Below, in pieces: positions 4,202-12,396 of a stretch of DNA of 15,026 nt. Position numbers and translations under genes: made by a program. The notes beneath the pieces were generated by a model. That model made no database searches. It was not told the DNA's origin and saw only the letters and a program-made list of their open reading frames with translations. Source of the stretch: an uncultured Ellagibacter sp. (GTDB taxonomy: Bacteria; Actinomycetota; Coriobacteriia; Coriobacteriales; Eggerthellaceae); NCBI GenBank assembly GCA_934654815.1, contig CAKUGU010000049.1:1-15026 (forward strand), read 5' to 3'. Numbering within the stretch: the first letter of the stretch is position 1; each line of letters opens with the position of its first letter.

Positions 4202-6400
4202 ATGAGGATACGGAGAAAACACCGTGAAATGCGCACCCATGCCGTTGCGTGGGGCATCCTCGCTGCGGCCTTCTCGGTCATCCTCATCGTCGGCTTCGGA
4301 GCGTACGGCGTCGCGCGTTCCCTCGATTCGTGGGTTGGGAAGCTTCCCGACGTGCACGACCCCGAAGCGTTCTCCTATAGCGAGAAGACACGCATCTACG
4401 CCAACGACAAAACCACGCTCCTCGCGGAATTCTACCTTCAGGACCAAGAGCCCGTCGCGGCGAATCAAGTGAGCGACTACGTTTTGAAGGGGACGGTCGC
4501 CACCGAGGACGCCCGCTTCTACGAGCACGGCGGCGTCGACTACTACGGCATCGCGCGCGCCCTCGTGAACAACCTGCGCGGCGGCGACTTGGAGGGCGCC
4601 TCGACCATCACCCAGCAGCTCGTGCGGAACACGCTGCTCTCGGACGAGGCGAACGACATCTCGTTTCGCCGCAAGGCGCGCGAGGCGGAGCTCGCCATCG
4701 AGATGGAGCAGGCGTATTCCAAAGACGAGATCCTCATGATGTACCTGAACACGATCAACTACGGTTCGGGGACCTACGGCATCGAGACGGCCGCGCGACA
4801 TTACTTCTCGAAGCATGCGAGCGATCTTACCGTCGCCGAAGCCGCGACGCTTGTCGGGATACCGCAGTCGCCCACGTACAACAATCCCGAAACGTACCCG
4901 GAGCGGTGCACGAAGCGCCGCAACCTCGTGCTTTCGCGCATGCTCGACGCGGGTGTGATCACAAGCGACGAGTACGAGAACGCGAAAGCCGAGGAGCTTG
5001 CGCTCAACGTGGACCGAAGGGCCGAAGACGGCATCTACGCCTACCCCTACTTCACGAGCTACGTCCGCGATCAGCTCCTCGACGAGCTCTCCTTCGACGA
5101 GGTGTTCACCGGAGGGCTCACCGTGTACACGACGATCGACCCTGCGCTTCAGGGATACGCCGAGCAGGCGGCGGACGAGGTGTACGCCGAGATGACAAGC
5201 ACGGGCGACGACGACGTGAGCCTATCTCTCACCTGCATCGACCCGCGCACCGGCTACGTGCTCGCCATGATCGGCGGGAAGGACTGGGAGCGAAGCCAGT
5301 TCAACCTGGCGACGAGCGCCTCGGGCAGGCAGGCGGGGTCGTCGTTCAAGGCGTTCACCGTTGCGGCAGCCATCGAGCAGGGCATCAGCCCGCGCACGGC
5401 GATCGACTGCTCGACGGGGTACGAGAACCCCGCCTGGCCCGAGCCCGTCACCAACTACGACGGCGCGAACTACGGGAACCTCTCCATCGAGAACATGACC
5501 TGGGTTTCCGCGAACACCGGCTTTGCCCGCCTTGTCACCGACCCCGACGGCGTCTCGCCCGAAAGCCTACTCGAGATGGCCGAGCGTCTCAGCGTCTCGG
5601 GGGACGCGCGCTACGGATACGGCGCTTACCCCGCCCTCACGCTCGGCGCCGCGCAGACGAACACGCTGCGTATGGCGAGCGCTTACGGCGTTTTCGCAGC
5701 CGGCGGCGCGCGCTATGCGGACACGTGCATCACCGAGGTTACGGCAAGCGACGGCGCGAAGCTCATCGACCATACGACCCCTCGAAGCGAGCAGGTGCTT
5801 TCCCCTGAAGTCGCCGCCGCGACGACGAACGTTTTGCGCGGGGTCGTGACCCAGGGCACGGGCCGCGAGGCGAAGCTTCCCTCGGGCCAGGTGAGCGCAG
5901 GTAAGACGGGGACGTCGCAGGAGCACCGCGACCTGTGGTACTGCGGGTACACCCCGCAGCTTTCGTGCGCGGTGTGGACGGGTGCCGCACAAGAGCGCGA
6001 GATGTGGGAAGCCCCCTGGTGCAAGGACGCCTGGCGGCTGTTCATGTCGCGCGCGCTTGAAGGGCGCGAGCTCGAGGACTTCCCCGCCGTCGCGGAACCC
6101 GCCTACGCGAACCCCTTCAACGAAAAACAAGCCGCCTCCAGTGAGGAGGCGGCTAAGAGTCTGATCACGCGGCTTGACGGCGCGAGCCTTGAAGAGGTGA
6201 AGGCGGCACTCGGAGACAGCCTTTCGGTCGAGGAAGCGTACAGCGCCGACGTGCCGGCCGGCAGCATCATCTCGATCGAGTACGCGAACGGCTCGTACAC
6301 AGCGAAGGTATCGCTTGGGCAGGACCCGCGCCCGAACAGCGGAAACGCTCCTGCTGCCGAACGGCAGGAGCAGCGGGAAGCCGCTAACGCGGAAGGCTAG
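4202..6400 (+). CDS. Class A penicillin-binding protein with C-terminal PASTA domain
   Basis: This bifunctional membrane enzyme polymerises glycan strands from lipid II and cross-links the peptides outside the cell. The 732-residue product has a basic cytoplasmic start and one membrane segment (about 15-38). A GT51 transglycosylase domain carries TEDARFYEHGG (101-111, catalytic Glu102), GASTITQQLVRN (132-143), the RRKAREAE block and the ILMMYLNTINYGSG motif (177-190). A transpeptidase domain carries SSFK (Ser380 nucleophile), SAN (436-438) and KTG (568-570). Residues about 652-706 read as one PASTA domain (SLEEVKAALG... DVPAGSIIS). All catalytic residues are present. The ATG at 4202 lacks a Shine-Dalgarno and may be leaderless; M10 at 4229 is the alternative, with GGAG a long 13 bases away. 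It is a paralogue of the PBP at 6968-9217 and converges on the lipoprotein gene. Confidence 0.93.
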   Translation: MRIRRKHREMRTHAVAWGILAAAFSVILIVGFGAYGVARSLDSWVGKLPDVHDPEAFSYSEKTRIYANDKTTLLAEFYLQDQEPVAANQVSDYVLKGTVATEDARFYEHGGVDYYGIARALVNNLRGGDLEGASTITQQLVRNTLLSDEANDISFRRKAREAELAIEMEQAYSKDEILMMYLNTINYGSGTYGIETAARHYFSKHASDLTVAEAATLVGIPQSPTYNNPETYPERCTKRRNLVLSRMLDAGVITSDEYENAKAEELALNVDRRAEDGIYAYPYFTSYVRDQLLDELSFDEVFTGGLTVYTTIDPALQGYAEQAADEVYAEMTSTGDDDVSLSLTCIDPRTGYVLAMIGGKDWERSQFNLATSASGRQAGSSFKAFTVAAAIEQGISPRTAIDCSTGYENPAWPEPVTNYDGANYGNLSIENMTWVSANTGFARLVTDPDGVSPESLLEMAERLSVSGDARYGYGAYPALTLGAAQTNTLRMASAYGVFAAGGARYADTCITEVTASDGAKLIDHTTPRSEQVLSPEVAAATTNVLRGVVTQGTGREAKLPSGQVSAGKTGTSQEHRDLWYCGYTPQLSCAVWTGAAQEREMWEAPWCKDAWRLFMSRALEGRELEDFPAVAEPAYANPFNEKQAASSEEAAKSLITRLDGASLEEVKAALGDSLSVEEAYSADVPAGSIISIEYANGSYTAKVSLGQDPRPNSGNAPAAERQEQREAANAEG
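6122..6154 (-). terminator. Minus-strand intrinsic terminator embedded in the PBP coding region
   Basis: A perfect 9-bp stem AGCCGCCTC / GAGGCGGCT with a seven-base loop is followed, on the minus strand only, by TTGTTTTTC. That orientation suits termination of the lipoprotein transcript, whose stop codon is about 245 bp upstream. On the plus strand the hairpin is not followed by T residues, so it should not stop PBP transcription. It encodes PBP residues about 644-651, ahead of the PASTA domain. Confidence 0.7.
6347..6371. other. Hairpin near the 3' end of the plus-strand PBP gene
   Basis: GCTCCTGC and GCAGGAGC form a perfect 8-bp stem with a nine-base loop; a nested TGCC/GGCA pairing is an alternative. 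The minus strand continues GTTTCC, a weak T tract, and the plus strand has none. It could be a weak first terminator for the leftward lipoprotein transcript or chance structure in GC-rich coding DNA. Confidence 0.3.
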
Positions 6401-6967: not shown

Positions 6968-9217
6968 TTACTCTACTGGAATGGGGGCGTCAGTGCCACC
7001 GCCGGACTCGCCACCGGAGCCGCCGGTGCCGCCCGTGGTGCCCGAACCGCCGCCGGTCGTGCCGCCGCCGGTATCGCCCGTGCCGCCACCTGCGCCGCCG
7101 GTCGTGCCACCCGTGCCGGACGAGCCGCCGGTACCGCCGGTCGTTCCGCTGTGCGTGCCGCCCGACGTGCCCCGGCCGGTTTCGCTCTCGTCGCCGCGCC
7201 CGCTCGAATTCGAGCGGTTCCGCGAAGAATTCGTCCCCGAGTACTCGTTGTCGGACGAAGAGCTGTAGTAGCCGCCGATGTGGTACTGAGAATCCTTGAA
7301 GTCGCTCTTGTACTGCGGGTCGGCCGCGTCGGGGAACTGCTCCACCTTCGCGTTCTTCAGCACGACGTTCATGAAATCCGGGAACGTGCTCGCCGCGGAC
7401 ATGCCGGTCGGCACTCGCTGGGCGGTGCTGTAGTCCGAGCGGTCGCCGAACCAGATGGCAACCGAGAGCTGCGGGGTGATGCCGCAGAACCAGCTGTCCA
7501 TGTAGTTCTCGGACGTGCCCGTCTTGCCGGCAACGGGCTGCTCGCTGTTCTCGAGAGCAGCCGCCTTGCCCGTGCCGTCGGTGATGACGCCCTTCATGAC
7601 CTCGGTCGCCGCATGCGCGACTTCGGCGGAGATGGCACGCGTGCCCGCAGGCGACGAGTTGTCGACGACGATGGACCCGTTGCGGTCGATGATGCGCTCA
7701 ATGCATTCGGGGTCGTAGTGCGTGCCGCCGTTGGCGATGGTGGCGTAGGATTCGGCCATCTCGAGCGGCGTCACCGATTCGGAGCCGAGCGTGAGCGAGC
7801 CGGTCGCGGTAAGCGGCGAATCGATTCCCATGCGCTTCGCCACGTCGACGACCTTGTCCGGCCCCATGGAAAGGATGAGGCGCGCGAAGGCGGTGTTCGA
7901 GGAAACCGCGAACGCCTTCTTGATCGTCGTCGTGCCGTAGCTCGTGTGGTTGATGTTGGAGACTTCCCATCCGGGGAACTCGGCCGTGGACGACGCGTCG
8001 ATGAGCGTGTTCGGGTCGATTCCCTGCTCGATTGAGGAGACGAGGGTGAACGTCTTGAACGACGAGCCCGCCTGACGGCCCGAGCCGCCCGTGCCCGTTG
8101 CCATGTTGACCTGCGACGTCGAGTAGTCCTTGCCGCCGACGAGCGCCTTGATGTAACCGTTGTCGGGATCGATCGCGACGAGCGCGACCTCGAAGTTGGA
8201 ACCTGCCGCTTCCTCTTTCTTGCGCGCGGCGGCCTCGGCGGCTTCCTGCGCGGAGACGTCAAGCGTCGTGTACACTTTCAAGCCGCCCTTGAACAGCTCG
8301 TCTTTCGAGTAGGCGTACTTGCCGGTCGAGGAGGTGAGCTGGTCGCGCACGTAGCTGGTGAAGTAGGGGTACTTCTCGATGCCGGTCGTGGAGATCTCGG
8401 TCGGGTTGAGCACGAGCGGCTCAGCCTGGGCCGCATCGTGTTCGGCCTGGGTGATGACGCCGTTCGAGAGCATGCGATCGAGCACGAGGTTGCGGCGCTT
8501 CGTGCAGTTCTCAGGGTAGTTGATGGGGTTGTTGTAGGTAGGAGACTGAGGGATTCCCACAAGCGTCGCGGCCTCGGCGATGGTGAGGTCGTTCGCGTGC
8601 TTGGAGAAATAGCGCTCGGACGCGGCCTCGATGCCGTAGGCGCCCGATCCGTAGTTGATCGTGTTGAGGTACATGAGCAGGATGTCGTCTTTGGAATACG
8701 ACTCCTCGAGCTTGATGGAGATGTAGGCCTCGCGCACCTTGCGCTTGATGGAGATGTCGTCCATTTCCGACGACAGGATGGTGTTGCGGACGAACTGCTG
8801 CGTGATGGTAGAGGCACCTTCCAAGTCGCCGCCCATGAGGTTGTTCACGAGCGCGCGGGCGATGCCCCACGGGTCGATTGCGCCGTGCGAGTAAAAGCGC
8901 TCGTCCTCGGTCGCGACCGTGCCTTTGAGCACGTACTCGCTGATCCCGTCGGCCTCGACCGGCGTGCGGTTCTCCAGCTGGAATTCCGCGAGCACCGTTT
9001 CGCCGTCGGAAGCGTACACGACGGTCGGCTGGGAGGTGTTGTACGCATCGGCGCTTTTGTAGTCGGGAAGATCGGAGAGCCACGACGAACCGACGGCGAA
9101 GACGCCCCCGACAAGCGAGACGAAGAACGCGATGACGATCGCCACCGCAACGAGAACGCCCGTCGACGGGTGCTTCTTCTTGATGTTTGCCCTGCTTTTG
9201 ATCGCGCGTGATGCCAC
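6968..9217 (-). CDS. Class A penicillin-binding protein with Gly/Thr-rich C-terminal tail
   Basis: This membrane-anchored bifunctional glycosyltransferase/transpeptidase has 749 residues. A basic N-terminus precedes a membrane segment (about 21-43). The GT51 domain shows TEDERFYSHG (103-112, catalytic Glu104), GASTITQQFVRN (134-145) and ILLMYLNTINYGSG (179-192). The transpeptidase domain shows SSFK (Ser385 nucleophile), SSN (439-441) and KTG (565-567). After about 650 it turns Ser/Asn/Arg-rich and then almost purely Gly/Thr/Ser to near the end, instead of the PASTA domain of its paralogue. The start is GTG at 9217, decided by AGGAGG six bases upstream. An extended -10 promoter lies at 9244-9252. 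The lipoprotein gene follows after 67 bp. It lies behind argH but probably starts its own transcript. Both activities look intact. Confidence 0.94.
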   Translation of the reverse strand: MASRAIKSRANIKKKHPSTGVLVAVAIVIAFFVSLVGGVFAVGSSWLSDLPDYKSADAYNTSQPTVVYASDGETVLAEFQLENRTPVEADGISEYVLKGTVATEDERFYSHGAIDPWGIARALVNNLMGGDLEGASTITQQFVRNTILSSEMDDISIKRKVREAYISIKLEESYSKDDILLMYLNTINYGSGAYGIEAASERYFSKHANDLTIAEAATLVGIPQSPTYNNPINYPENCTKRRNLVLDRMLSNGVITQAEHDAAQAEPLVLNPTEISTTGIEKYPYFTSYVRDQLTSSTGKYAYSKDELFKGGLKVYTTLDVSAQEAAEAAARKKEEAAGSNFEVALVAIDPDNGYIKALVGGKDYSTSQVNMATGTGGSGRQAGSSFKTFTLVSSIEQGIDPNTLIDASSTAEFPGWEVSNINHTSYGTTTIKKAFAVSSNTAFARLILSMGPDKVVDVAKRMGIDSPLTATGSLTLGSESVTPLEMAESYATIANGGTHYDPECIERIIDRNGSIVVDNSSPAGTRAISAEVAHAATEVMKGVITDGTGKAAALENSEQPVAGKTGTSENYMDSWFCGITPQLSVAIWFGDRSDYSTAQRVPTGMSAASTFPDFMNVVLKNAKVEQFPDAADPQYKSDFKDSQYHIGGYYSSSSDNEYSGTNSSRNRSNSSGRGDESETGRGTSGGTHSGTTGGTGGSSGTGGTTGGAGGGTGDTGGGTTGGGSGTTGGTGGSGGESGGGTDAPIPVE
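6992..7171 (-). repeat. Low-complexity GGT/GGC repeat encoding the PBP tail
   Basis: About 180 bp encode residues 683-742, made of short Gly-Gly-Thr, Gly-Gly-Ser and Gly-Gly-Gly units with few other residues. Units vary in length and order, so this is a degenerate codon-level repeat rather than a fixed tandem array. Such tracts tend to change length by slippage. In the protein it probably forms a flexible, disordered tail in the cell wall. Confidence 0.8.
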
Positions 9218-9325: not shown

Positions 9326-10720
9326 CTACGCTTCGAGGGCGGCGACGTCGGACGCAAGCGCCGATTTCGCGGCGTCCATCTGCTCGGCGACGGCGGAATT
9401 GCCCGTGCCGCCGAACGTCGTGCGCGCGGCGACGATGCTCTTGAGGTCGAGGCACTTCGTGATGTCGGCTTCGAACAGGTCGCTTTCCGCCTTGAAATCC
9501 TCAAGCGACAGATCCTCGAGACCGCATCCGCGCTTGTCGCACAGGAGCACGAGGTGGCCGACGATCTCGTGCGCGCGGCGGAACGGAAGGCCCTTCTTCG
9601 CCAGGTAGTCGGCGACGTCGGTTGCGGCGAGGTAGCCTTTCTTCGCCTGCTCGAGCATGGCGTCGGGATGGATTTCCATCGTGTCGATCATGCCGGTCGC
9701 GCAGCGGTAGCAGTCCTCGAGCGTCTTCGCGGCGTCGATGGCGCCCTCCTTGTCTTCCTGGAGGTCCTTGTTGTAGGCGAGCGGCAGCGACTTCATGGTG
9801 ACGAGGAGCGCGACCAAGTCGCCGATCACGCGGCCGGACTTCCCGCGGATGAGCTCGGCGAAGTCGGGGTTCTTCTTCTGGGGCATGATCGAAGAGCCCG
9901 TGGAGAACGAGTCGGACAGCGTGACGAACCCGAATTCCGACGTGGACCAAAGGATGATCTCCTCACACAGGCGCGACAGGTGCATGCAGGAAACGCTGCA
10001 TGCGTAGAGGAGATCGAGCAGGAAGTCGCGGTCGGACACCGCGTCGAGCGAGTTGGGGATGACGCGCGAGAACCCGAGCGCCTCGGCGGTCATGAAGCGG
10101 TCGAGCGGGTAAGTGGTGCCGGCGAGCGCCGCCGATCCGAGCGGATTGGCGTCGGCCGCGTCGTAAGCGGCCTTCAGGCGGTCGTAGTCGCGCCCGAGCA
10201 TCCACACGTAAGCGAGCATATGGTGCGAGAAGAGCACCGGCTGCGCGTGCTGCATGTGGGTGTAGCCGGGCAAAATGACGTCGAAGTGCTTTTCAGCCTG
10301 CGAGATGAGCGCTTCGCGCAGCTCGACGTTCGCCTTCATGAGGTCGTGCGCGCGCTTCTTCGCGAACAGGCGCGTGTCGGTGCAGACCTGGTCGTTGCGG
10401 CTGCGACCCGTATGAAGGCGCGCGCCCGCGTCGCCGATCTCGGACGTGAGCACGCTCTCGACGGACATGTGGATGTCCTCGTTGTTGATGTCGAACGTGA
10501 AGTTGCCGGACTCGATCTCGCCCTTGATGTGCTCGAGGCCCTCGTCGATCTTCTTGGCGTCTTCCTCGGAGATGACCCCTTGGTGCGCGAGCATCGCCGC
10601 ATGAGCGCGGGAGCCGGCGATGTCCTGCGCGTAAAGCTGCTTGTCGATGGGCAGCGACGCGCCGAAACGCTGCGTGAACTCGCTCACGCCCTCTTCGAAT
10701 CTGCCTGACCAAAGTGCCAT
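9326..10720 (-). CDS. argH: Argininosuccinate lyase
   Basis: This cytoplasmic enzyme splits argininosuccinate to arginine and fumarate, the last step of arginine synthesis. The 464-residue product is full length for the fumarase/aspartase superfamily. It has HTGRSRNDQ (103-111), the THMQHAQP block with the conserved His155, and the superfamily signature GSSIMPQKKNPD (275-286) with the catalytic serine loop. The ATG at 10720 has AAGGAG six bases upstream. It is the last arginine gene of the leftward cluster, separated from argG by an unusually long 399-bp structured gap, so it may be expressed from its own promoter (near 10850-10855) as well as by read-through. Nothing in the coding sequence looks damaged. 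Confidence 0.97.
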   Translation of the reverse strand: MALWSGRFEEGVSEFTQRFGASLPIDKQLYAQDIAGSRAHAAMLAHQGVISEEDAKKIDEGLEHIKGEIESGNFTFDINNEDIHMSVESVLTSEIGDAGARLHTGRSRNDQVCTDTRLFAKKRAHDLMKANVELREALISQAEKHFDVILPGYTHMQHAQPVLFSHHMLAYVWMLGRDYDRLKAAYDAADANPLGSAALAGTTYPLDRFMTAEALGFSRVIPNSLDAVSDRDFLLDLLYACSVSCMHLSRLCEEIILWSTSEFGFVTLSDSFSTGSSIMPQKKNPDFAELIRGKSGRVIGDLVALLVTMKSLPLAYNKDLQEDKEGAIDAAKTLEDCYRCATGMIDTMEIHPDAMLEQAKKGYLAATDVADYLAKKGLPFRRAHEIVGHLVLLCDKRGCGLEDLSLEDFKAESDLFEADITKCLDLKSIVAARTTFGGTGNSAVAEQMDAAKSALASDVAALEA

Positions 10721-10751
10721 CTCAAGCTCCTTCTATCCATGGGTTCCGACC

Positions 10752-10840
10752 GGTCCTAGCGCCCGATGGTCTTCAGTCGCTCAAACAGTCCTCGCTTTGC
10801 TGCGGAACTCGCTTTGTGAAGGCCATCGGGCGCTAGGACC
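10752..10840. repeat. 89-nt inverted-repeat rod with 18-bp perfect arms, in the argH leader
   Basis: GGTCCTAGCGCCCGATGG (10752-10769) is the exact reverse complement of 10823-10840. After one non-Watson-Crick position (10770/10822) five more pairs form (10771-10775 with 10817-10821). The central 41 nt can pair further, including an AGTTC/GGACT-type inner hairpin, and hold two copies of CAAAGCGAG on the minus strand. The outer arm begins within three bases of the predicted argH start of transcription, and 31 nt remain between the structure and the argH ATG. It could be a leader RNA element, a small palindromic mobile element, or part of a plus-strand RNA. No known riboswitch class is recognised. 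Confidence 0.75.
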
Positions 10841-10849
10841 TGCATTTTC

Positions 10850-10855
10850 ATTTTA
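10850..10855 (-). promoter_or_regulatory. Possible argH promoter in an AT-rich island
   Basis: The minus strand reads TAAAAT (five of six -10 matches) in the only AT-rich patch of the gap. No good -35 is visible. The predicted start near 10843 would give argH a leader of about 123 nt beginning with the 18-bp stem. The island (10841-10858) loosely resembles the AT-rich half-sites of arginine-repressor boxes, but too poorly to call one. Confidence 0.35.
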
Positions 10856-10858
10856 TGA

Positions 10859-10885
10859 GAAGGGCGCTCGTTTCGAGCGCCCTTT
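10859..10885. terminator. Hairpin with T-rich flanks, possibly bidirectional terminator
   Basis: AAGGGCGCTCG and CGAGCGCCCTT form an 11-bp perfect stem with a TTT loop. On the plus strand it runs into TTTGGTTCGTTCGTT; on the minus strand into TTCTCATA. Both tails are only moderately T-rich. On the minus strand it would end or reduce read-through from argG just before the possible argH promoter. On the plus strand it could end an RNA that contains the 89-nt rod. Confidence 0.5.
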
Positions 10886-10971
10886 GGTTCGTTCGTTCTG
10901 AAGACAACGCTCGCTCAACACCGTGTGACCTGCAACTTTGTCGAACAAACAGGTTTCGTCGAAGTCAGCGA
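10886..10971. other. Unstructured spacer within the argG-argH gap
   Basis: No gene is visible. The spacer contains CTGAAGAC (10898-10905), the reverse complement of GTCTTCAG (10769-10776) in the 89-nt rod, and TCGCTCAA, which also occurs in that rod near 10777. In a read-through transcript the first pair could form an alternative to the rod. The matches are short and may be chance. Confidence 0.25.
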
Positions 10972-11072
10972 GCGGGGTTGTGGCGAGTGCAGGGGCCGCG
11001 AAAGGTTGAGGACGCGTACTTCGAGGTACGCGACGAGACCTTGGAGCAGCCCCTGTGCCGCCACAACCCCGC
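10972..11072. repeat. 101-nt multi-helix inverted-repeat rod between argG and argH
   Basis: The element folds into a single rod from four nested helices. Outer GCGGGGTTGTGGCG (10972-10985) pairs perfectly with 11059-11072. CAGGGGC (10990-10996) pairs with 11049-11055. AAGGT (11002-11006) pairs with 11038-11042. CGCGTAC (11013-11019) pairs with 11026-11032 around a six-base loop. No T tract follows on either strand. No coding frame, tRNA-like or riboswitch pattern is recognised. It may be a structured RNA or an intergenic palindromic repeat. Confidence 0.75.
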
Positions 11073-11085
11073 ACAGCGTCGGCAT

Positions 11086-11113
11086 GTTCCGCCGGTCGGC
11101 AGACCGGCGGAAC
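11086..11113 (-). other. Strong hairpin six bases after the argG stop
   Basis: GTTCCGCCGGTC and GACCGGCGGAAC form a perfect 12-bp stem with a four-base loop. No T tract follows in the argG direction, so it is unlikely to be an efficient intrinsic terminator by itself. A 3'-end stabilising structure or a roadblock to RNA decay is plausible. Confidence 0.6.
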
Positions 11114-11119
11114 CCCTTG

Positions 11120-12325
11120 CTAGCGATGCTTCTCAGCCCAGACCTTTCCGAAGAGGCTGTAGATGTTGATGAAGCCCTTCGCGGACTTGTGGTCGAAGGT
11201 GTCGCCCTCGTCGTAGGTCGCGAGCTCCTTGGTGTAGAGCGAGTAGTCGCTCTTCGAGCCGGTGACCGTGCAGGAGCCCTTGTAGAAGCGCAGGCGCACC
11301 GTGCCGGTGACCTTTTCCTGCGTGGTGGCGAGGAAGGCGTCGAGGCCGGCTTTGAGCGGCGCGTACCACTTGCCGTTGTAGACCTGATCGGCCCACTCGT
11401 GCTCGACGTGGAGCTTGAAGTGGAGCACGTCGCGCTCGAGGCAGATGTCCTCGAGGGCCTTATGCGCCTTGATGATGGCGAGCGCGCCCGGAGCCTCGTA
11501 GCACTCGCGGCTCTTCACGCCGACGAGGCGGTTCTCCACCATGTCGAGGCGGCCGTAGCCGTTTTCGCCCGAGATCTTGTTCATCGCGAGGATGATGTCG
11601 AGGTAGCTCATCTCCTTGCCGTCGAGGGCGCAGGGGATGCCGTCCTTGAACGAGATCTCGACGACGGTCGGGGTGTCGGGAGCGGCGTCAGCATCGGCGG
11701 TCATGGTGTAGATGTCCGCAGGCGGCTCGTTCCACGGGTCTTCGAGGACGCCGCATTCGATGGCGCGGCCCCACAGGTTGTCGTCGATGGAGTACGGCGA
11801 CTTCTTCGTGGTGGGAACCTCGACGCCGTGCGCCGCGGCCCAGTCCATCTCCTGCGGGCGGGTCTTCAGGTCCCACTCACGGACCGGGGCGATGATCTGC
11901 AGCTTCGGGTCGAGCATCATGATGGACGCCTCGAAGCGGACCTGGTCGTTGCCCTTGCCGGTGCAGCCGTGCGCGACGTACTTCGCGCCGAATTCGTGCG
12001 CGATGTCGACGAGGTGCTTGGCGATGAGCGGACGGGAAAGCGCGGACACGAGCGGGTACTTGTTCTCGTAGAGCGCGTTCGCGGCGAGTGCGCGGTTGAG
12101 GTACTCGTTGGCGAATTCCTCGCGCATGTCGACGACGCGGCACTCGATGGCGCCGGTGCGCAGCGCCTTGTCGTGGATCTTCTCGAGGCCGTCGTGCTCC
12201 TGCCCCACGTCGCCCACCACGGCGATGACGTCGAGGCCGCGCTCCTCCTGCAGCCACTTGATGCAGACGGACGTGTCAAGGCCGCCCGAGTAGGCCAAAA
12301 CGACCCTGTCTTTTTGCTCGCTCAT
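11120..12325 (-). CDS. argG: Argininosuccinate synthase
   Basis: This cytoplasmic enzyme joins citrulline and aspartate with ATP (to AMP and PPi) to give argininosuccinate. The 401-residue product has the N-type PP-loop AYSGGLDTS (11-19) and the second family signature GCTGKGNDQVRF (120-131). Length matches the family. The ATG at 12325 is chosen because AAAGGA lies seven to eight bases upstream and the protein then begins directly before the ATP-binding strand. The longer frame from 12361 adds twelve residues with no SD support. It is 71 bp downstream of argD on the same strand. A small AT-rich double palindrome in that gap (12341-12357) may carry regulation. The next gene of the pathway, argH, is separated by the hairpin-rich 399-bp gap. 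Confidence 0.97.
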   Translation of the reverse strand: MSEQKDRVVLAYSGGLDTSVCIKWLQEERGLDVIAVVGDVGQEHDGLEKIHDKALRTGAIECRVVDMREEFANEYLNRALAANALYENKYPLVSALSRPLIAKHLVDIAHEFGAKYVAHGCTGKGNDQVRFEASIMMLDPKLQIIAPVREWDLKTRPQEMDWAAAHGVEVPTTKKSPYSIDDNLWGRAIECGVLEDPWNEPPADIYTMTADADAAPDTPTVVEISFKDGIPCALDGKEMSYLDIILAMNKISGENGYGRLDMVENRLVGVKSRECYEAPGALAIIKAHKALEDICLERDVLHFKLHVEHEWADQVYNGKWYAPLKAGLDAFLATTQEKVTGTVRLRFYKGSCTVTGSKSDYSLYTKELATYDEGDTFDHKSAKGFINIYSLFGKVWAEKHR

Positions 12326-12340
12326 GAATCTATCCTTTCC

Positions 12341-12357
12341 CAGTTCAAAACTGTTTT
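12341..12357. promoter_or_regulatory. AT-rich overlapping palindromes upstream of argG
   Basis: CAGTT CAA AACTG (12341-12353) overlaps AAAAC T GTTTT (12347-12357), just upstream of the argG ribosome binding site. A TTGCGT about 25 bp further up might serve as a -35, but the matching -10 is weak. It could be an operator or minor promoter in the argD-argG gap. Confidence 0.25.
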
Positions 12358-12396
12358 CCAAAGGTAACGCAAACGTGCGCCGCGAAGCGCGCGAAT

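Follow-up and report, generated by a model that had tools for sequence, protein, structure and literature searches.

A REP element is a short palindrome that follows a constant tetranucleotide (e.g., GTAG), and a genome with REPs carries a Y1 transposase (RAYT) that moves them. Other repeats in intergenic DNA, such as ERIC/IRU, BOX and similar elements, are imperfect palindromes of approximately 100–150 bp. In Escherichia coli, a REP that lies 15 nt or less from a stop codon is reported, in a passage of PMC12306157 that cites earlier work, to lower translation. In the part of PMC8355165 considered here, clusters of hairpins near stop codons are described as terminators for which U-tracts are dispensable, and part of PMC8040213 reports palindromic candidate RNAs in microbiomes.

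The window analysed here is a stretch of DNA of 15,026 nt from an uncultured Ellagibacter sp. (Eggerthellaceae, Coriobacteriia), in which argG and argH are separated by a long gap. The original prediction described four inverted repeats in this gap and offered three explanations: one or more structured RNAs, a separate control of argH, or a landing zone of small palindromic elements. Rather than an arg-specific RNA, the gap contains dispersed palindromic elements stacked one after another, and as two of its units belong to dispersed families, the landing zone is the best of the three explanations.

The argG–argH gap

The orthologous gap of two close relatives, with ArgH 96% and ArgG 94% identical, is found at loci L089 and L090 and has the layout seen in the window. 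The features of the gap and its flanks are as follows:

9326–10720, minus strand: argH, the next gene of the arg cluster, with its ATG at 10720
10721–11119: the argG–argH gap of 399 bp, both flanking genes being on the minus strand
10752–10840, minus strand: family A element, with 24-bp arms (10752–10775 and 10817–10840, from the repeat tool) that are 96% complementary, around a conserved core
10773–10824, minus strand: conserved core of family A, with copies in other genomes
10860–10884, no strand given: GC-rich hairpin with an 11-bp stem and a 3-nt loop, read from sequence and folds; L089 and L090 retain it with changes
10903–10960, minus strand: predicted fifth, weaker stem-loop, from the folds; its counterpart in L089 is a clear GACCTGC/GCAGGTC hairpin
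10954–11113, minus strand: full-length family B element, positions 1–158 of covariance model R1 (cmsearch 162.3 bits, E 4e-37; this copy was among the 20 sequences used to build R1)
10972–11072, minus strand: long hairpin of family B, approximately 100 nt, with arms 10972–10985 and 11059–11072 (repeat tool)
11086–11113, minus strand: H1 of family B, near the argG stop, with a 12-bp stem and a 4-nt loop (arms 11086–11097 and 11102–11113, repeat tool) and compensatory changes in relatives
11120–12361, minus strand: argG, the stop codon of which (11122–11120) anchors family B here; its start may be at 12361 or at 12325

Each of the four inverted repeats is present: three were returned by the repeat tool, and the one at 10860–10884, which is below the length limit of that tool, was read from the sequence and folds instead and shows no clean U-tract when the gene strand is read. 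The family B element begins 6 nt after the stop codon of argG. Its long hairpin contains conserved motifs (e.g., GCTCCAAG, TCGTCGCGTACC and GTACGC), and the conserved edges GACGCTG and CTCGCTGAC are at the base of this hairpin or just outside it. The base of the family A element is 17 nt upstream of the presumed ribosome-binding site of argH (10727–10734, located by eye).

The folding of the gap was compared with that of shuffled sequences, as the original prediction had proposed, and an excess was found on both strands: −209.4 kcal/mol versus −146.0 ± 6.4 kcal/mol for the shuffles on the minus (gene) strand (z −10.0), and −215.6 versus −148.3 ± 5.6 kcal/mol on the plus strand (z −12.0), with 0 of 100 shuffles equalling the real gap on each strand. 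Rfam gave no match at gathering score across the whole window and, at relaxed thresholds, only sub-threshold matches in the gap, the best having an E-value of 0.54 and none being convincing; a promoter scan of 10500–11400 revealed no promoter-like site. Both H1 and the stem of family A are among the places where L089 and L090 show compensatory changes, and in L089 one arm of the family A stem has diverged from its partner. The ArgH of the window is 96% identical in genomes G059 and G060, and the scan for related loci with ArgH returned relatives at 66% identity or less. Beside the arg cluster there are two related long ORFs, at 4202–6400 (plus strand) and 6968–9217 (minus strand), the translations of which appear penicillin-binding-protein-like.

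Dispersed copies and their position after stop codons

Copies of the two units are dispersed over many genomes. The search for further copies that had been suggested, made with the gap DNA and with about 5 candidates scored per genome, gave matches in 76 of 138 Eggerthellaceae genomes, most of them within two distinct blocks corresponding to approximately 10962–11116 (family B) and 10773–10824 (family A). Family B is built of a short hairpin and a hairpin of approximately 100 nt, in 158 model positions. Its nested stems covary: the structure predicted from 20 aligned copies has 46 pairs, 34 of which show double changes in at least one sequence. Model R1, the calibration of which was short, so that its E-values are rough, matched 110 of the 138 Eggerthellaceae genomes at E ≤ 0.01, with approximately 21 candidates scored in each, and 155 of 396 Coriobacteriia genomes at E ≤ 0.001, with 7 scored in each; by our own count, 65 of these 155 are outside the Eggerthellaceae set. 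The single-contig genomes G066 and G056 (150 candidates scored in each) had 48 and 51 matches at E ≤ 0.01, and 38 and 45 at E ≤ 1e-6, respectively. Among 38 non-Coriobacteriia genomes, the best match had 32 bits (E 2e-4) and the next 21 bits; in a sample of 296 Actinomycetota, 11 genomes matched at E ≤ 1e-6, all of which were already positive in the Coriobacteriia search. Short forms of B, without most of the long hairpin, were seen at L244 (G087), L195:1501–1587 and L177:2343–2409.

Family B is anchored at stop codons. This was determined for 110 distinct copies (from 114 matches in 100 loci), using ORFs of at least 100 codons, or 60 where the ORF runs off the locus. For 89 of the 110 copies, a qualifying ORF has its stop in the interval from −60 to +45 relative to where the element starts. 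For 67 of the 110 the stop begins at −15 to −1, leaving −1 to 11 nt (mode 3) between stop and element, and for 16 the stop of the host gene is inside H1, in 14 of these at +12, i.e., in the loop. Counting copies that are at most 11 nt after a stop or have the stop inside H1, 83 of the 110 are anchored, all with an ORF of at least 100 codons, versus 136 of 2280 positions taken at random on the same strand of these loci. Other copies include some after short genes (e.g., L137), and a minority are inside reading frames. At L122, L125, L126, L156, L157, L164, L166 and L168, the stop is in the H1 loop, and the last codons (often V-P-x-A) together with the stop coincide with the element.

The genes upstream of B are diverse. 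In the 67 ORFs scanned of the 83 (those left out being mostly orthologous duplicates), there are 98 Pfam families, none of them in more than four members, and the 25 families shown are largely housekeeping; the linkage to one pathway by which a riboswitch or cis-leader is recognized was not found among these genes.

In family A, the core is near-invariant, whereas the arms differ at each locus and yet still pair, the locus-specific stems being mostly 19–37 bp. Across 15 copies and 25 pairs, 90.1% of cells are paired, versus 59.4% in shuffles, and double changes occur at 23 of the 25 pairs, a level that none of 500 shuffles reached. With ≤3 mismatches allowed, a core pattern matched 20 of the 396 Coriobacteriia genomes, every one of them from the Eggerthellaceae set, and the reversed control pattern had no match in the 396; the top count was 23 core copies, in G082. 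Taking the longest nearby ORF of at least 100 codons with its stop 15–75 nt before the core, i.e., in the stem region, family A follows a gene stop at 22 of 38 sites on one strand (one of the 22 being the window's own site, with a spurious antisense ORF) and at 4 of 38 on the other, versus 193 of 1520 random positions. Ten of the 22 ORFs were scanned, and all ten match Pfam. The element in the window is inverted relative to this usual placement and lies upstream of argH.

Junction contents, copying and the strand of pairing

The argG–argH junction was compared in loci from 30 of 124 matching genomes, argH being adjacent in 29. Among these 29 Eggerthellaceae junctions, 15 gaps are ≤36 bp and 14 are 80–658 bp; thus, the alignment of relatives that had been proposed as a check gave compensatory changes in L089 and L090, but gap content is not conserved with argGH. 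A complete B is present only in the window's two close relatives. Locus L239 has a decayed B (53 bits), L244 has a B reduced to H1 and tail (seen by eye and not reported by R1), and several other gaps contain unrelated palindromes. The gaps at L254 (G021) and L261 (G022) have other inverted-repeat families, e.g., GCGCTAATCGGGCGAAACG and CTCTAAATCGAAG repeats, which resemble neither A nor B.

At pheS–pheT, compared in 30 of 134 genomes with the start of pheT located by pattern, the gap is 13–22 nt in 6 of the 30 and 177–398 nt in the other 24. Both edge motifs of B are present in seven genomes, among which G091 adds one A motif, and both motifs of A in 14, among which G064 adds a B motif; of the remaining long gaps, that of G021 has a single A motif only, and those of G093 and G054 have no A or B motif. 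At E ≤ 0.001, R1 matched 8 of these 30 loci, and one of the 8 matches, at L371, is weak and partial. PheS is 92% identical between G022, which has B at this junction, and G023, which has a short gap. Thus, one junction can be filled, empty, or filled with another family. Three sequences at pheS–pheT are of separate note: G071 (L354) has an outer stem much like that of G069 (L352), and its A core includes an additional inner hairpin, making it a longer A form; L358 (G064) reads as an apparent hybrid, its A-type hairpin carrying an edge motif of B; and L369 (G091) reads as an apparent hybrid in which a further hairpin is nested within the inner part of B.

Copying of the elements has probably happened. 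The most similar pair of B copies in G056 is 88% identical (median 57%), and no identical copies were found among those compared. Clustering of 92 proteins gave only five clear cases in which B copies of G056 and G066 follow the same gene; these are 56–79% identical in the best pairing. Orthologous retention was rejected as proof of an old function, as there are five shared genes only and their copies are only somewhat above the between-genome median of 57% and below the best pairs at different genes (85–87%). A Y1 (HUH, RAYT-type) transposase was rejected as the mover: PF01797 matches 71 of the 138 Eggerthellaceae genomes, and G056 and G066 are not among these despite their 45 and 38 B copies (E ≤ 1e-6).

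If pairing is selected in mRNA, then G.U is expected to exceed A.C on the gene strand. For B, the gene strand has 79 G.U versus 82 A.C in the 38 of 46 columns that are at least 85% Watson–Crick; over all columns the counts are 109 and 208, the surplus being mostly from three columns that are often A.C (G.U on the other strand). For A, the inner 18 pairs of 37 copies (three of which share identical arms) have 56 G.U versus 10 A.C on the strand AAGCGAGTTCC... (p 7e-9), the antisense strand with respect to the gene that ends beside A; at 11 pheS–pheT loci, the gene strand of A has 3 G.U versus 11 A.C, the same direction as in the 37 copies. A count in 33 tRNAs (ARAGORN) gave 38:0; it is not a fair control and is not relied on, because ARAGORN is not known to draw any but standard pairs. 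Given these counts in B and A, covariation alone does not reveal an mRNA hairpin, and a structure at the DNA level or on the antisense strand fits the covariation at least as well. Of the structured RNA in the original prediction, the conserved, covarying structure stands, for family B; it is not arg-specific, and the G.U and A.C counts single out no mRNA strand. Strand-symmetric covariation such as this is a warning that covariation by itself is no proof of RNA function.

Possible roles and comparison with described elements

A regulatory RNA specific to arg (leader, attenuator or riboswitch) that controls argH would be consistent with the strong folding of the gap and the compensatory changes among the three close relatives. 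However, the same units follow dozens of unrelated genes, most other argG–argH junctions compared are without them, and neither an Rfam match at gathering score nor a promoter-like site was found in the gap, so that this explanation is very improbable, being largely refuted by the dispersed copies. A separate control of argH may still exist, but as the same elements follow unrelated genes, any effect on argH is likely generic. Hairpin-cluster terminators, which would end transcription without a U-tract as proposed in other bacteria, GC-rich ones especially, are also improbable, if less so. Strong hairpins at most 11 nt from stop codons argue for termination, as does the precedent in the part of PMC8355165 cited above. 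Against this, B is most often between co-directional genes (50 of 110 copies tandem and 16 convergent, with 44 unassigned or other, by a crude ORF finder, which also placed the next ORF start ≤60 nt away in 34 of the 50), and B is also found between pheS and pheT, where full termination would silence the next gene. The search for U-tracts around A and B gave a weak result, TTTT occurring in the 80 nt downstream of 25 of the 110 B copies and, for 1 of 38 and 4 of 38 A stems, in the adjoining 15 nt; the hairpin with a U-tract at an operon end that marks an intrinsic terminator was not what this search revealed. Furthermore, A and B are conserved, whereas the part of PMC8355165 considered here found no sequence conservation near the stop.

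On balance, we lean towards A and B, as repeat families of Coriobacteriia, being REP-like intercistronic repeats that are kept as barriers between cistrons. The hairpin, transcribed or looped out, would act as a barrier at the cistron boundary, either blocking 3′ exonucleases or slowing the terminating ribosome or RNA polymerase, with the outcome that the upstream gene (argG) would be expressed or preserved more than the downstream gene (argH); for argG–argH, this predicts that expression or stability changes stepwise from one cistron to the other. The elements would spread by copying and be kept where a boundary is tolerated or useful. Counting against a barrier are the lack of a G.U excess over A.C in B, the antisense excess in A, the inverted A of the window, and there being five shared-gene cases only. 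Possibly, though this is rather unlikely, the elements are selfish palindromic DNA that spreads without any host role, keeps its palindromes at the level of DNA (by a single-strand hairpin, a cruciform or template switching during repair between the arms) and gathers after stops because insertion is least harmful there. The strand symmetry of G.U and A.C in B and the opposite-strand bias in A, the patchy presence at argG–argH, copies up to 88% identical at unrelated genes of one genome, and the host stop carried inside H1 in 16 of 110 copies all fit selfish DNA, as does the orientation of B in G056, where 43 of 45 copies are oriented with the leading strand versus 106 of 165 sampled genes (replichores by GC skew; with the skew turn at 2.07 Mb, 40 of 45). 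Harmlessness alone would hardly account for the 3 nt that usually separate stop and element, nor does it suffice for 24 of 30 pheS–pheT junctions being filled, and by different families; the lack of identical copies among those compared and of a RAYT-type transposase in the copy-rich G056 and G066 also speaks against it. It is unlikely, yet conceivable, that Coriobacteriia use an exchangeable, modular set of nested hairpins (B, A, the longer A and the apparent hybrids) as stop-codon devices, in which the conserved internal loops would be recognition nodes, the stems would drift freely under pairing, the element may supply the stop in its loop, and the expression step would be set via structure in the DNA or antisense strand, not via an mRNA hairpin.

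These are class-wide, high-copy, stop-codon-locked repeats in common gut bacteria that appear to be unnamed, a literature search having found no description of such elements in Coriobacteriia; if they set the ratios of gene products within operons, then the reading of expression in these bacteria would change. They may overlap with one of the candidates of PMC8040213. Like the hairpin-cluster terminators in the part of PMC8355165 considered here, A and B have hairpins near stops without a U-tract; unlike these, A and B have conserved sequence motifs and are mostly between tandem genes. Compared with ERIC/IRU and BOX, by general description only, the copies of A and B are highly diverged, with compensated stems, and locked to stop codons. 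Compared with REP elements, no constant tag was seen by eye between the stop and H1 in 58 B contexts, and no Y1 transposase was found in the two copy-rich genomes. The E. coli REP/BIME also differ in that B has 158 positions and two hairpins, that A has locus-specific stems, and that A and B are found in Coriobacteriia. Like the REP/BIME of E. coli, however, A and B are dispersed extragenic palindromes downstream of genes and close to stop codons, B being at a stop in 83 of 110 copies. Thus, REP elements appear to be the closest described relatives of A and B, and a REP-like mode of working is our best guess.
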